Origin: Bacteroidota bacterium
GTDB lineage: Bacteria > Bacteroidota > Bacteroidia > Chitinophagales > Chitinophagaceae
Reading direction: 5' to 3'
Length of the DNA: 64,000 nucleotides
Assembly: GCA_029558715.1 (NCBI GenBank)
Contig: JAKQEA010000100.1
Location: forward strand, 1 to 64,000
The notes beneath the pieces were generated by a model. It saw only the letters and a list, made by a program, of their open reading frames with translations, searched no databases and had not been told where the DNA came from. Both the position numbers and the translations under genes were made by a program. Positions 41,143-46,477 of this stretch are shown piece by piece. Each line of letters opens with the position of its first letter. The stretch's first letter is position 1.

Positions 41143-41505
41143 ATGCATGGTATAATGACTATTGAGCTCAAAGAGCTGCGTTTTCATGCTTTTCATGGAC
41201 TTTTTCCGGAAGAGAAAAAGACAGGTAATGATTTTGAAGTAAATATCCTTGTCAGTTTTGTGCCAGACAGTGCAGTAATCAGGAATCTTGATTCAACAAT
41301 AGATTATGCAAGGTTGTATGACATACTAAAGGTGGAAATGAAAAAACCAAGAACATTGCTTGAAACGCTGGCCATGGAAATCGCAGAATTAATTCATTCT
41401 TTGTTTCCTGAGATCAGGAAAATTGATATAAGTATCAGGAAAGATCAACCTCCAATTCTTCATTTTACAGGCAATACCGGGGTGAGATATCAAATAGAAT
41501 ATTAG
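41143..41505 (+). CDS. folB: Dihydroneopterin aldolase
   Basis: MTIELKELRFHAFHGLFPEEKKTGNDFEVNILV...STIDYARLYDILKVEM. Confidence 0.93.
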   Translation: MHGIMTIELKELRFHAFHGLFPEEKKTGNDFEVNILVSFVPDSAVIRNLDSTIDYARLYDILKVEMKKPRTLLETLAMEIAELIHSLFPEIRKIDISIRKDQPPILHFTGNTGVRYQIEY

Positions 41506-42428
41506 TTCAATACTTTACTGGTCTGGCCAATAAGATTCCCGCTATGATATAGTTGTAAAGTGTAATTGCCCGGCAGGTAGTTGTCTGCATTAAGTGAAAA
41601 AGTGAGCCGCTTTGTTTCACTTTTCAGGTATTCAAATTTTATTTTACGGGTATAGCTTTTTCTCTCACCTGTATGGGTAATCATTGGTGATGCAGATTCC
41701 CATACATCGGGGGTCAGTACTTTACCATCTGGCTGGGTGATAATAATAAATATTTCAGCATTGTTGTAGTCATTAATATTATTCTGCACAGCAAAAGAAA
41801 CTATCAGCTTACTTACCTTTTTAGCAATATTGGTTTCCTGTTCTTTGTCATTTTTTAGCATAACGGGTGATAGCCTTATCTCTGACGCAACAAATAAGGA
41901 AGCCCGGTCAACTTTTTCAGATAAGATCCTGTTTTCATCCCCAAGCTTTTTCATTGACTGCTGAAGACCTGTTATCTCTCCATTCAATTGCAACATCACC
42001 TCATTTAGCCTTTTCTTTTCCTCTTCGATATTAGTTTTTTCACCACGCAGTTCATCCACCAAAACCTGTAACTCAGCTATTTTTTTCCGGGCTGTTGTCA
42101 TATCAGACTGACTGGCACCACGATTTCTGAGAATTCCATTTATCTCGGACCTTAACCTGTTGATTTCTCCCAGTTTCACATTTAATTCAGTCTTTAGAGA
42201 ATCAGCACCGGAACGGGTGGCACTTAACTGCTGATCTAAGTTATTAAGAGAAGTAGCATATATTTTTCTCAGTGAATCCTGGACAGCCTCCGCTACAGCT
42301 ATTGAATCCTTAATAAATATTTCTTTCCGGTGGTTGGTATATTGTGTTTTGTCATAGAGGTGATAAACCCATGTGCCTACCAAGCCGACTGAGAGCATAA
42401 CCAATAACAGGGTTTTAATATCCTTCAT
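41502..42428 (-). CDS. Membrane-anchored coiled-coil protein with C-terminal beta domain (paralogue B)
   Basis: N-terminal TM, long heptad-rich region, AKKVSKLIVSFAVQNNINDYNNAEIFIIITQPDGKVL; aligns end to end with 44286..45260. Confidence 0.75.
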   Translation of the reverse strand: MKDIKTLLLVMLSVGLVGTWVYHLYDKTQYTNHRKEIFIKDSIAVAEAVQDSLRKIYATSLNNLDQQLSATRSGADSLKTELNVKLGEINRLRSEINGILRNRGASQSDMTTARKKIAELQVLVDELRGEKTNIEEEKKRLNEVMLQLNGEITGLQQSMKKLGDENRILSEKVDRASLFVASEIRLSPVMLKNDKEQETNIAKKVSKLIVSFAVQNNINDYNNAEIFIIITQPDGKVLTPDVWESASPMITHTGERKSYTRKIKFEYLKSETKRLTFSLNADNYLPGNYTLQLYHSGNLIGQTSKVLN

Positions 42429-42455
42429 AGGGACAAGCTATTAATAGAGAGAAAT

Positions 42456-42944
42456 TTATTTTTTGAATGTAAAACCTTTGGGAGCTTTTAATATACCAAA
42501 GTCGTACATATTTATATAAATGTAAACAGGTTTTGCAAGACCCTGGTAGGTTACTTCATACCTGTCAAGCAAGCCGCCATTATTGATAAATCCGTTAGGT
42601 GTGGTGAAAGGACAGCAACTACCTTTTCTAACATATTCCACTTCCTCGCCATCTGGCCCCATCAATGCATTCAGGAATCTTCTTTCATTAAGCGGCCCTT
42701 CGCTGCTTTTTACTCCACCAACCATTATAGGGTTCTTTTCAGTATATCCATATGTTTCATCATCTGAGATTTCTTTCAGTTCAAATGTATTATTATTCAA
42801 TAACCGGGCCTGCGATTTGGAATAGGTCTTATTACTGCTTTCTGATGCGGAATAACCGCCAGCCGAACCGGCAGATGTTGTTTTTTTGGATGATCCACAT
42901 GCACTCAGGCTAAACACAACAGCCAGTAAGATGAATTTATACAT
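42456..42944 (-). CDS. Lipoprotein of unknown function (Cys-Cys motif)
   Basis: Lipobox SLSACGSS; YGYTEKNPIMVGGVKSSEGPLNERRFLNALMGPDGEEVEYVRKGSCCPFTTPNGF. Confidence 0.75.
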   Translation of the reverse strand: MYKFILLAVVFSLSACGSSKKTTSAGSAGGYSASESSNKTYSKSQARLLNNNTFELKEISDDETYGYTEKNPIMVGGVKSSEGPLNERRFLNALMGPDGEEVEYVRKGSCCPFTTPNGFINNGGLLDRYEVTYQGLAKPVYIYINMYDFGILKAPKGFTFKK

Positions 42945-42962
42945 TATACTATTTTTATTGAT

Positions 42963-44111
42963 TTACCTCGAAATAGTCTGGTCTACATATGCAGAGACCC
43001 AGCCAACCTGTCCATTTTTTACAAGGTAGAATTGCTTGGTTTCAAAAGCAGATTCAAACTGACGCATGATTTTCCATAAAAGACCTGCGCCTGACATAAG
43101 TGATTTTTGATCAAAAACCTTATGCACCCTGGCAACTTCCTGCTTTATTTGTTCTTTTAAGTCAGGCCTGTCTACAACAGAAGAAAGGAAATCAGCTGAA
43201 AGAGCCCCAAAATTATTGACAAGTTTTTCATTGAACTTTACCAGCTCATTAAAAGTAATTGATATAACAGGGTAGTCAATCAATTCCGGATGCATGAGTG
43301 TTGCAGCAGCCCAGGCGATACCACCACTAACTGCAATATTATCACTGAGCGGATAGGCACCACTCGAGTTAACTGCATAAATGATATCTGCATTTTCAGC
43401 GTTCATCAATACCCTGGAAAGATTCTTACCGAAATTGGACATACTCATATCTCCGTCACATCTTTTTTCTGCCTCGTTGAAAGTGCTTTTTGTACCCCAA
43501 TTCAATTGAAACAATTTAAAATTGCTGGTATTCATTCCATCTGGGAAGAAGCCTCCCTTTGTATTACCACTCCCGATATCAATTAGAAATGTAGTAAATC
43601 GTCTTTTATCAGGCACTATACCCAGGTGCGAAAGCCGGGCTTCCTGCATCACATCCACTATTTCCACCATTCTTTCAGGCTCGTTGATCCTGCTCCTGAA
43701 TGAATCTATCAGTTGCCTGACCATACTTGTTTTCTGGTCTTTTTCTGCCTGCATTTTTACCCCACTGCTAATAACGGTGAAAATTCTTTTAGAAGGTATC
43801 TTTAGATCCTTTGTCGCTTTTGTATACAACCCATATAACCCATCCAGGGTAGCATTAAATGTTGGCTGGGAGAAACTAATAAAATCTGTATTTACAGATG
43901 TATCCTTAATAATATTAAATGCGCCGGTGCTTTGTGCATTTTTCCCAATTTCAATGATACTCATCTTTACTCCCTTTGAACCAACTTCAATACCGGTGTA
44001 AATTGAAGAATTATTATACTTGGGCTGCACAGTATTTTGAGCAACAGTTATTAAGGATGTTAGAAGAAGAGTAACAGGCAAAACTATTTGCCGGTAAATT
44101 TTGTGCAGCAT
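42963..44111 (-). CDS. Exported Ppx/GppA-like (ASKHA-fold) protein
   Basis: Sec signal peptide (TSLITVAQ); IYTGIEVGSKGVKMSIIEIG, VEIVDVMQEARLSHLGIVP, TFLIDIGSGNTKGGFF, AVSGGIAWAAATLM resemble Ppx/GppA motifs. Confidence 0.65.
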   Translation of the reverse strand: MLHKIYRQIVLPVTLLLTSLITVAQNTVQPKYNNSSIYTGIEVGSKGVKMSIIEIGKNAQSTGAFNIIKDTSVNTDFISFSQPTFNATLDGLYGLYTKATKDLKIPSKRIFTVISSGVKMQAEKDQKTSMVRQLIDSFRSRINEPERMVEIVDVMQEARLSHLGIVPDKRRFTTFLIDIGSGNTKGGFFPDGMNTSNFKLFQLNWGTKSTFNEAEKRCDGDMSMSNFGKNLSRVLMNAENADIIYAVNSSGAYPLSDNIAVSGGIAWAAATLMHPELIDYPVISITFNELVKFNEKLVNNFGALSADFLSSVVDRPDLKEQIKQEVARVHKVFDQKSLMSGAGLLWKIMRQFESAFETKQFYLVKNGQVGWVSAYVDQTISR

Positions 44112-44231
44112 GTTATATTTTTTACTTTATGATAAAAATACTACAATACAACGCAGTTTTACTTTATACTATTCAGGAAGGGATATAATGTGAAAAAAAT
44201 GTGGTTAACATTCTTTCTGTTGCGATAAGAC

Positions 44232-44268
44232 AAAAAAAACCGCCTCGAATAATACGAAGCGGCTTCAT
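44232..44268 (-). terminator. Intrinsic terminator downstream of 44286..45260
   Basis: On minus strand CCGCTTCG-tattatt-CGAGGCGG followed by T8. Confidence 0.8.
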
Positions 44269-44285
44269 GCAGGAGTTATCTGCTT

Positions 44286-45260
44286 TTAACTGAATAAACC
44301 ACCTTTTTTCAGGCTTCTTACACCTTCACCGATTTTAAATCCATTATGGTAGATTTCAACTTTATAATCACCAGTTTTGAAATCCCCTTGTTTGATAGGG
44401 AATTGAACCGGTTTACGGGTTCCCTGCTCATAATTTACAGGAATTCTTGCTGTAAATGTTTTTTCACCATCCTGACGGGTATTCAAAACGCTTCCTGCTT
44501 CAGAAATTACTTTTCCATCAGGAGCTGTTACGATCAGATACATATCAGCAGGACCTGATTTTGCAATACGGTTTTCAACATCAAATGAAACTACAAGCTT
44601 ATCTACTTTCTTCGCAGTGCTTGTATTTTTCTCTTTTCCGCTTTTCTTTTCATCAACAGGAGTTACCTGTATGTTTGAAGCGCTGAAAGTAGATCCTACA
44701 TCAACCGTTTTTTCCAGGCTTTCTTTTTCTGATTTAGTGGTTGTCAGGTTTGTTTCCAATGTTGCTTTTTCCTCTTTCAGAGTAGTATTAGCCGCTGTAA
44801 GCTCCTGGTTTTCCCCTGTCAGGCGGGATACCTCAGCTTCCAGGCTAGTGATCTTATCGTTTAATTCTGAGATCATCGTTCTTGCCTTGGCTAGTTGAGC
44901 CTGTGTTGCATTTTTATCATTCAGGATCTTGCGGATCTCCGATTTTTTAGCATCGATCTCTTTTTGTTTATCGGTCAACTGACCCTGAAGGTTATTGTTG
45001 GCACCCGTAACAGAGTCAAGTCTTGCCAGGGCATTATCAAACTCCATTTGAATATCTGTCTTTGCAGAGTCTAATGCAGCAATCTGAGTTTGTTGTTTAG
45101 AGATCGTTTCTCCGGATTTGTTTTTGTCCCAGAGAAGGTAACCCCAGGTACCCAAAAGGCCTGCGGCCAGCAAGCCTATCACGATATTCTTGCTATTCTT
45201 GTTTTTGTTCGGCTGGCTTTGGGGGGTGGCAGAAGCCGAAGGATAATTCGTGTTTGTCAT
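44286..45260 (-). CDS. Membrane-anchored coiled-coil protein with C-terminal beta domain (paralogue A)
   Basis: Single TM KNIVIGLLAAGLLGTWGYLLW, long coiled coil, TAKKVDKLVVSFDVENRIAKSGPADMYLIVTAPDGKVI. Confidence 0.75.
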   Translation of the reverse strand: MTNTNYPSASATPQSQPNKNKNSKNIVIGLLAAGLLGTWGYLLWDKNKSGETISKQQTQIAALDSAKTDIQMEFDNALARLDSVTGANNNLQGQLTDKQKEIDAKKSEIRKILNDKNATQAQLAKARTMISELNDKITSLEAEVSRLTGENQELTAANTTLKEEKATLETNLTTTKSEKESLEKTVDVGSTFSASNIQVTPVDEKKSGKEKNTSTAKKVDKLVVSFDVENRIAKSGPADMYLIVTAPDGKVISEAGSVLNTRQDGEKTFTARIPVNYEQGTRKPVQFPIKQGDFKTGDYKVEIYHNGFKIGEGVRSLKKGGLFS

Positions 45261-45478: not shown

Positions 45479-46477
45479 ATGAGTGTGGAAAAGATAATTT
45501 CAGACTGGAAAAAGAAGCTGTTCAAGCCGGTTTATTGGCTGGAGGGAGAAGAGGAGTACTTTATCGATAAAGTCATCGAATTTGCCGAGCATCACATATT
45601 AGATGAGAGCCAGGCATCATTTAATTTAACTGTTTTTTATGGGAAGGACGCCAACTGGGCGGATGTACTGAATGCCTGTCGCCGCTATCCGATGTTTTCG
45701 GAACGACAGGTTGTCATTCTCAAAGAGGCCCAGCAAATGAAGGATGTGGAGAAGCTGGAACCATATATTGAAAACCCACTCGTTTCCACAGTGTTCGTTG
45801 TCTCTTACAAGGAAAAAAAACTTGATGCAAGGAAGAAGTTCGCAAAACTGGTGAAGGAAAAAGGTGTGTTGGTGACTACTAAGAAATTGTACGATAAAGA
45901 TGTTCCCGGCTGGATACAGGAGTTGGTTCATTCCAAGGGGCTCACTATTACACCTAAGGGACTTGCATTGCTGGCGGATCATATTGGTAATGATCTGACC
46001 CGGATAGAGAATGAAATAGGTAAACTTTCTGTTAACCTTGGTAAAAGGACCAATATTACGGAAGACGATATCGAACAATATATCGGGGTAAGTAAAGATT
46101 ATAATGTTTTTGAGTTACAATCTGCGCTGGCAGCAAAGGATCTGCCCCGTGCTATACGGATCATACAATATTTTGAGGCAAATCCCAAAGCGGGACCAAT
46201 ACAATTGATACTACCATCTTTATACAGCTTTTTCAGCAAGGTATTTATGGTTTTTGGGGCTGGCACCACAGATGAAAAAACGATTGCTGCAAGCATTGGT
46301 GTTAATCCATATTTCATGAAAGATTATACACAGGCTGCAAGGCTCTATACTTATCCCGGAGTCGAAAAGGTCTTATTATTACTTCATCAGTATAATCTTA
46401 GAAGTGTAGGTATAGGAAGTAATTCTGCTGAGGATACATCGCTAATGAAAGAGCTGGTGATAAAAATGCTTACCTGA
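45479..46477 (+). CDS. holA: DNA polymerase III subunit delta
   Basis: KPVYWLEGEEEYFIDKVIEFAE, YPMFSERQVVILKEAQ, LADHIGNDLTRIENEIGKL. Confidence 0.9.
   Translation: MSVEKIISDWKKKLFKPVYWLEGEEEYFIDKVIEFAEHHILDESQASFNLTVFYGKDANWADVLNACRRYPMFSERQVVILKEAQQMKDVEKLEPYIENPLVSTVFVVSYKEKKLDARKKFAKLVKEKGVLVTTKKLYDKDVPGWIQELVHSKGLTITPKGLALLADHIGNDLTRIENEIGKLSVNLGKRTNITEDDIEQYIGVSKDYNVFELQSALAAKDLPRAIRIIQYFEANPKAGPIQLILPSLYSFFSKVFMVFGAGTTDEKTIAASIGVNPYFMKDYTQAARLYTYPGVEKVLLLLHQYNLRSVGIGSNSAEDTSLMKELVIKMLT

Follow-up and report, generated by a model that had tools for sequence, protein, structure and literature searches.

Proteins of the Ppx/GppA family are seen as enzymes of the cytoplasm that act in polyphosphate and alarmone metabolism. 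The GDA1/CD39 NTPDases (ecto-apyrases, e.g. 4bra) are exported ASKHA proteins, for which we know of no linked coiled-coil gene; in the PilM-PilN and GspL systems an ASKHA domain is combined with a bitopic, coiled-coil membrane protein; and MreC-like proteins consist of an anchor, a coiled coil and a beta domain. Here, we describe a locus in a 64,000-nucleotide stretch of Chitinophagaceae DNA (the ‘window’, to whose positions all coordinates refer), where the gene for a predicted exported relative of Ppx/GppA, hereafter the ASKHA protein, is accompanied by that for a membrane coiled-coil protein, B, itself a paralogue of a further protein encoded close by, A. Comparison across genomes indicates that the conserved unit is a two-gene one, ASKHA plus B, with an upstream element of its own, and with B almost confined to genomes that have ASKHA; a pairing that is real, widespread and, as far as we could find, undescribed.

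The ASKHA-B pair may be analogous to PilM-PilN or GspL, but the ASKHA part of those systems is cytoplasmic, whereas here it is predicted to be exported, and we saw no sequence relation. The neighbourhood is unnamed in Pfam, NCBIfam and PADLOC, in keeping with the original prediction, which recognised no named system of this composition; and the literature, as far as our partial coverage reached, gave nothing relevant on Bacteroidetes proteins that are exported forms of Ppx or belong to a periplasmic pair with an ASKHA member.

Results

The ASKHA gene (42963..44111, minus strand) encodes 382 residues, with a signal peptide at about residues 1-25. Scans of the Pfam, NCBIfam and PADLOC libraries gave no useful match for the protein (P0003), and no Ppx model scored. 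HHalign gave a probability of 98.9% (E = 2e-17) for the match between a profile of 28 exported ASKHA forms and four true Ppx proteins; a profile search of the PDB (hmmsearch) returned nine Ppx/GppA entries, that from H. pylori PPX/GppA at E = 4e-5, plus one spurious match; and a flavobacterial relative scores above the cut-off of the Pfam Ppx-GppA family (PF02541), at 57.5 versus 27 bits. An AlphaFold2 model built from 68 relatives (mean pLDDT of 88, pTM of 0.80) best matched Ppx/GppA crystal structures in Foldseek, where the 24 first matches are all Ppx/GppA proteins (E from 6e-12), with NTPDases mixed in afterwards, ranking below Ppx at E of about 1e-8; TM-scores of 0.5-0.6, normalised on the query, indicate the same fold with considerable divergence. 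No GDA1/CD39 match to the protein was found in Pfam or NCBIfam at E-values up to 1, which places it, by sequence, outside that family. Profiles and model alike thus point to a true, but distant, relative of Ppx/GppA, and to a resemblance that is not due to chance.

An N-terminal signal sequence is present in the aligned ASKHA subtypes, setting them apart from a family of cytoplasmic proteins, and is followed by an Ala-Gln (AQ) cleavage pattern in 61 of the 68 homologues; features that indicate export from the cytoplasm. The original prediction of an exported Ppx/GppA-like protein, made from motifs and a signal peptide, is therefore borne out by signal sequence, profile and predicted fold.

The active set of the Deinococcus enzyme (DrPPX) comprises D7, R86, E114, D136 and E143 (PMC11234463), and in mycobacterial Ppx Asp135 and Glu142 are predicted metal ligands, with Arg84 and Glu112 implicated in hydrolysis (PMC3411833). 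In the residue register of the HHalign profile alignment, the window protein carries E42, K119, E157, D178 and K185 at the five DrPPX positions, such that E114 and D136 are retained from the canonical catalytic and metal-binding set. Among the 68 relatives E157, D178 and K185 are each invariant (68/68), position 42 is Glu in 63 and Asp in five, and position 119 is Lys in 65; across 28 representatives of all subtypes, E157 is found in 28 and K185 in 26. The protein shares with Ppx/GppA (PF02541; 1t6c, 3cer, 6pc2, 7epq) the ASKHA fold, the order of the motifs, the catalytic Glu (E157) within an E-A-R-L helix and the Asp of the phosphate-2 loop (D178), but differs in its signal peptide, in a phosphate-1 Asp that is mostly Glu, in the absence of the REG motif, and in having GSGNTK for GGGSTE, which swaps the metal-binding Glu for Lys185. 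The cleft is intact and strongly conserved (K49, E157, D178, G180, G182, N183, K185 and G263-G264), and so under strong selection, but its metal site has changed. By fold, then, the protein belongs to the family; by its residues, it does not appear to be a canonical exopolyphosphatase. With Lys185 standing where the metal-binding Glu would be, the usual Mg-dependent exopolyphosphatase reaction is unlikely, whilst slow or different hydrolysis would still be compatible.

This bears on whether the protein is instead an active exported phosphohydrolase, taking polyphosphate, nucleotide or another phosphate ester for scavenging, with B merely as its anchor. The Ppx/GppA fold is consistent with such a role, as are the invariant E157 and D178 and the fact that the next structural matches after Ppx, the NTPDases, are exported ASKHA hydrolases; and because NTPDases likewise do not have the Glu of GGGSTE, Lys185 alone is no proof of inactivity. 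Set against this are the charge reversal in every one of the 68 relatives, the change of D7 to E42 and the loss of REG. Moreover, no phosphate-uptake genes adjoin ASKHA in the neighbourhoods examined and searching this genome for PstB, the phosphate-transport ATPase, gave no match that passed the family cut-off, so that a Pho-regulon context is not apparent. We consider a scavenging enzyme to be a credible, if rather unlikely, explanation.

The same genome also encodes one ordinary Ppx (C50) and a second exported ASKHA paralogue, 29% identical and 468 residues long, with an N-terminal TPR domain (G000:C146:90540-91655; locus L017, 8277-9683). ASKHA matches occur in 12 of 61 sampled genera of Chitinophagaceae; among cultivable relatives, strains of Ferruginibacter paludis, Lacibacter cauensis and Terrimonas pollutisoli have the gene. 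The form consisting of a signal peptide and ASKHA domain is found in this family and, as a 365-residue version, in family f5; the TPR-ASKHA form, again with a signal peptide, recurs in further families of the phylum, across which lipoprotein-anchored and membrane-anchored architectures are also seen. At L051-L054, for example, lipoprotein- and membrane-anchored forms carry GSGNTK in place of GGGSTE. Many relatives of Chitinophaga from soil and water would seem to export a remodelled form of Ppx, the polyphosphate-cutting enzyme, within a broad set of such proteins in Bacteroidia that has at least four architectures and of which we found no description.

B (41502..42428, minus strand; 308 residues) and A (44286..45260, minus strand; 324 residues) are, as predicted, paralogues, related over their whole length with 31% identity (E = 5e-44). 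An AlphaFold2 model of A combines an anchor helix at the N terminus, long helices and, at the C terminus, a beta-sandwich, its pTM of 0.42 being as expected of a long coiled coil; Foldseek matches this model to the Fn3-like C-terminal domains of GH3 beta-glucosidases, the beta-sandwich being taken as the matched part from the length of the alignment. The order of anchor, coiled coil and beta domain in A and B may be analogous to that in MreC-like proteins, but A differs by its single modelled Fn3-like sandwich and has no Pfam match above cut-off. Indeed, both A and B gave only below-cut-off matches in the three libraries, which we discount as coiled-coil spill-over.

A-family genes are present in 389 of 399 Chitinophagaceae genomes. 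More widely, among 397 Bacteroidota genomes 85 carry A's beta domain, all of them from the window's own class, and outside Chitinophagaceae A is a lone gene with varying neighbours. A is a core gene of Bacteroidia, near-universal in Chitinophagaceae, that occurs without ASKHA, the lipoprotein described below, or B. In a tree of 105 sequences, a branch supported at 100/100 separates the B genes, together with six genes that precede ASKHA and the tandem copies of two genomes (G022 and G445), from the A genes, which are grouped with genes from genomes that do not have ASKHA. B accordingly forms a single paralogue clade and is a dedicated copy of A, the core membrane protein.

Linkage was counted over 79 loci whose ASKHA frame is readable. 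In 55 of them ASKHA is followed directly, on its own strand, by an A-family gene (gaps mostly of 5-120 bp), and in 29 such a gene precedes it, six of these being the B-clade genes just mentioned, so that ASKHA and B are adjacent in about 61 of the 79 loci (55 downstream plus six upstream); a neighbourhood conserved in many Chitinophagaceae genera. Over the 399 genomes, two or more A-family copies are found in 61 of the 64 with ASKHA and in 43 of the 335 without (Fisher p about 1e-39, with genome lists typed by hand and shared ancestry ignored). When some 30 of those 43 were scored with A-only and B-only profiles, B-clade copies were found in four (G004, G051, G513 and G570).

The copy in G513 (L256, 5838-6584), which lies beside A, is shortened to 248 residues, and looks as if B decays once ASKHA is lost; its congeners G041 and G565 have ASKHA. 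A flavobacterial genome (L069) has a local duplicate of its own A, sister to it in the tree, two genes away from an exported ASKHA gene, which we take as a second, independent pairing of ASKHA with an A duplicate, albeit a single instance on a long branch.

These counts can be set against another explanation, namely that ASKHA acts alone and B is a duplicate left beside A, cotranscribed with ASKHA by position only. Such a history would suit G022 and G445, where A and B stand in tandem with ASKHA tens of kb distant, and also the solo ASKHA loci, which retain the upstream element described below (e.g. L102-L105, L120, L122, L124-L126 and L138). It sits poorly, however, with 28 loci that have the downstream A-family gene but, on that strand, lack any A within 600 bp, with the near-absence of B from genomes that do not have ASKHA, and with the similar pairing in a separate flavobacterial lineage. 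We judge an accidental association of this kind to be quite improbable.

What is new here is a 20-bp element before ASKHA (44189..44208, minus strand; TTAACCACATTTTTTTCACA, consensus TTARNCACATTTTTTWCACA), with two CACA half-sites 11 bp apart. Allowing up to three substitutions, the pattern is present before ASKHA in 64 of 77 loci, including loci without an upstream A as well as solo ones; at up to two substitutions there are 63 sites, in which the half-sites are invariant or near-invariant. A conserved promoter-like motif (TAGTATTTTTATC; 44131..44143, minus strand), presumably part of the promoter, follows 45 bp downstream. Across loci, the distance from the element to the TAnTTTTA motif is 36-38 bp in 24 cases and 47-49 bp in 28; two spacings that differ by 11 bp, or one helical turn, which is what a bound activator would lead one to expect. 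In this genome the element is unique at up to two mismatches (expected count in the window, 0.01). A scan of 80 genomes, allowing one mismatch and assigning sites by comparison of coordinates, gave 24 matches in 40 genomes with ASKHA, 21 of them just before ASKHA, and three in total in 40 without; a reversed-pattern control gave three in all 80. The element is essentially operon-specific. Before TPR-type and flavobacterial ASKHA genes it was not found, save for one match with three mismatches in L073.

Three familiar types of site were considered and rejected. Direct repeats of 11 bp recall PhoB boxes, but a Pho-regulon reading is not supported, given the PstB result and a single-copy element, and we found nothing usable in the literature on Pho boxes in Bacteroidetes. 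Of the two half-sites only the second fits the DnaA box (TTWTNCACA), since 62 of the 63 sites have a purine at position 4 of the first; and the repeats are direct, not inverted as in a CRP-type site.

The original prediction had drawn the unit more widely, as a four-gene envelope module of A, ASKHA, a lipoprotein and B. The layout is exactly as it described: four consecutive minus-strand genes in that order, the last three separated by 18 (ASKHA/lipoprotein) and 27 bp (lipoprotein/B); the spacer between A and ASKHA measures 174 bp. The tight spacing, and an identical order in the nearest relative (L077), are what such a module would lead one to expect. However, A is near-universal without ASKHA and ends in its own intrinsic terminator (44236..44266, minus strand), which lies between A and the ASKHA operon, is strong, and has a similar counterpart in most relatives whose intergenic region was examined; because of it, A appears to be transcribed separately from the operon of ASKHA, lipoprotein and B. 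The lipoprotein (42456..42944, minus strand; 162 residues) does have the predicted lipobox (LSAC) and Cys-Cys pair (Cys110-Cys111, invariant in five aligned relatives), but it occurs in just three of 120 Chitinophagaceae genomes, this one included, two of the three being without ASKHA; relatives are found at L077 and L088, with a remnant at L080. It is a rare passenger and not part of the conserved core. The four-gene module is thus mostly refuted, and we hold it to be very improbable. Conservation of the neighbourhood, which had been proposed as a check, extends across many genera for ASKHA and B, and to few relatives for the lipoprotein.

Discussion

Bringing these observations together, we tentatively favour a model, to which we would give a little less than an even chance, in which a two-gene operon encodes an envelope pair: a Ppx-like ASKHA protein, non-canonical and periplasmic, and B, a coiled-coil anchor in the membrane. 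We suggest that the anchor of B lies in the inner membrane, with its coiled coil and beta-sandwich in the periplasm, where it might serve as a ‘docking post’ to the ASKHA protein, which would be soluble. The cleft of the latter could then bind a phosphate-containing ligand, closing and opening in the manner of ASKHA domains, such that the pair would act as a ligand-dependent switch, or as an assembly factor, on an envelope process that A serves constitutively; the 11-bp direct repeat would be bound by a protein that switches transcription. The earlier proposal that the proteins act together in the periplasm or at the envelope would then probably hold for the ASKHA protein and the coiled-coil paralogues. 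In its most specific form, where an exported, Ppx-derived ASKHA protein devoid of Ppx chemistry senses a phosphate-containing ligand, docks on B and controls A's process under a single-operator regulator, the scheme is speculative, and we think it unlikely to be right in every part.

Several observations weigh against the envelope pair. Roughly 15 of the 79 ASKHA loci are without a neighbouring A or B gene on the same strand, and in two genomes (G020 and G026) ASKHA is present and no B was found; B is not, therefore, strictly required. No element was found before B genes that stand apart from ASKHA (A-B at L190 and L191), so the element goes with ASKHA and not with B. Charge balance at the membrane anchor favours an N-in/C-out arrangement only weakly (for B, +1.7 versus +1.1), so that, from sequence, a periplasmic coiled coil is a tentative assignment. 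To our knowledge the periplasm has no ATP supply. Genomes without ASKHA keep A, and A's process therefore does not need the switch. It is the weak charge bias and the solo loci, above all, that temper our confidence.

Saying this, an operator that serves one operon offers a clean route to the regulator and to the inducing condition, and the locus draws attention to A, a near-universal and uncharacterised membrane coiled-coil protein that constitutes an envelope part worthy of study.

Additional features

A defence-system reading was also set aside: the PADLOC matches of A and B are weak and mostly to long coiled-coil or SMC-like models, and PADLOC defence models had zero matches for the ASKHA protein and the lipoprotein (P0002).

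Solo ASKHA loci (L104, L105, L115, L120, L122, L124-L126 and similar) repeatedly lie near a glycosidase-like gene and a GMC-type oxidoreductase with its small subunit, which is an alternative conserved neighbourhood for ASKHA. At L029 (7129-11041), a TPR-ASKHA gene stands in a row with genes for a possibly vWA-like lipoprotein, which has an LLDLSDR motif, and for a coiled-coil membrane protein of multiple helices. In the window itself, the gene upstream of A and divergent from it (45479-46477) is, we presume from its family, holA-like.

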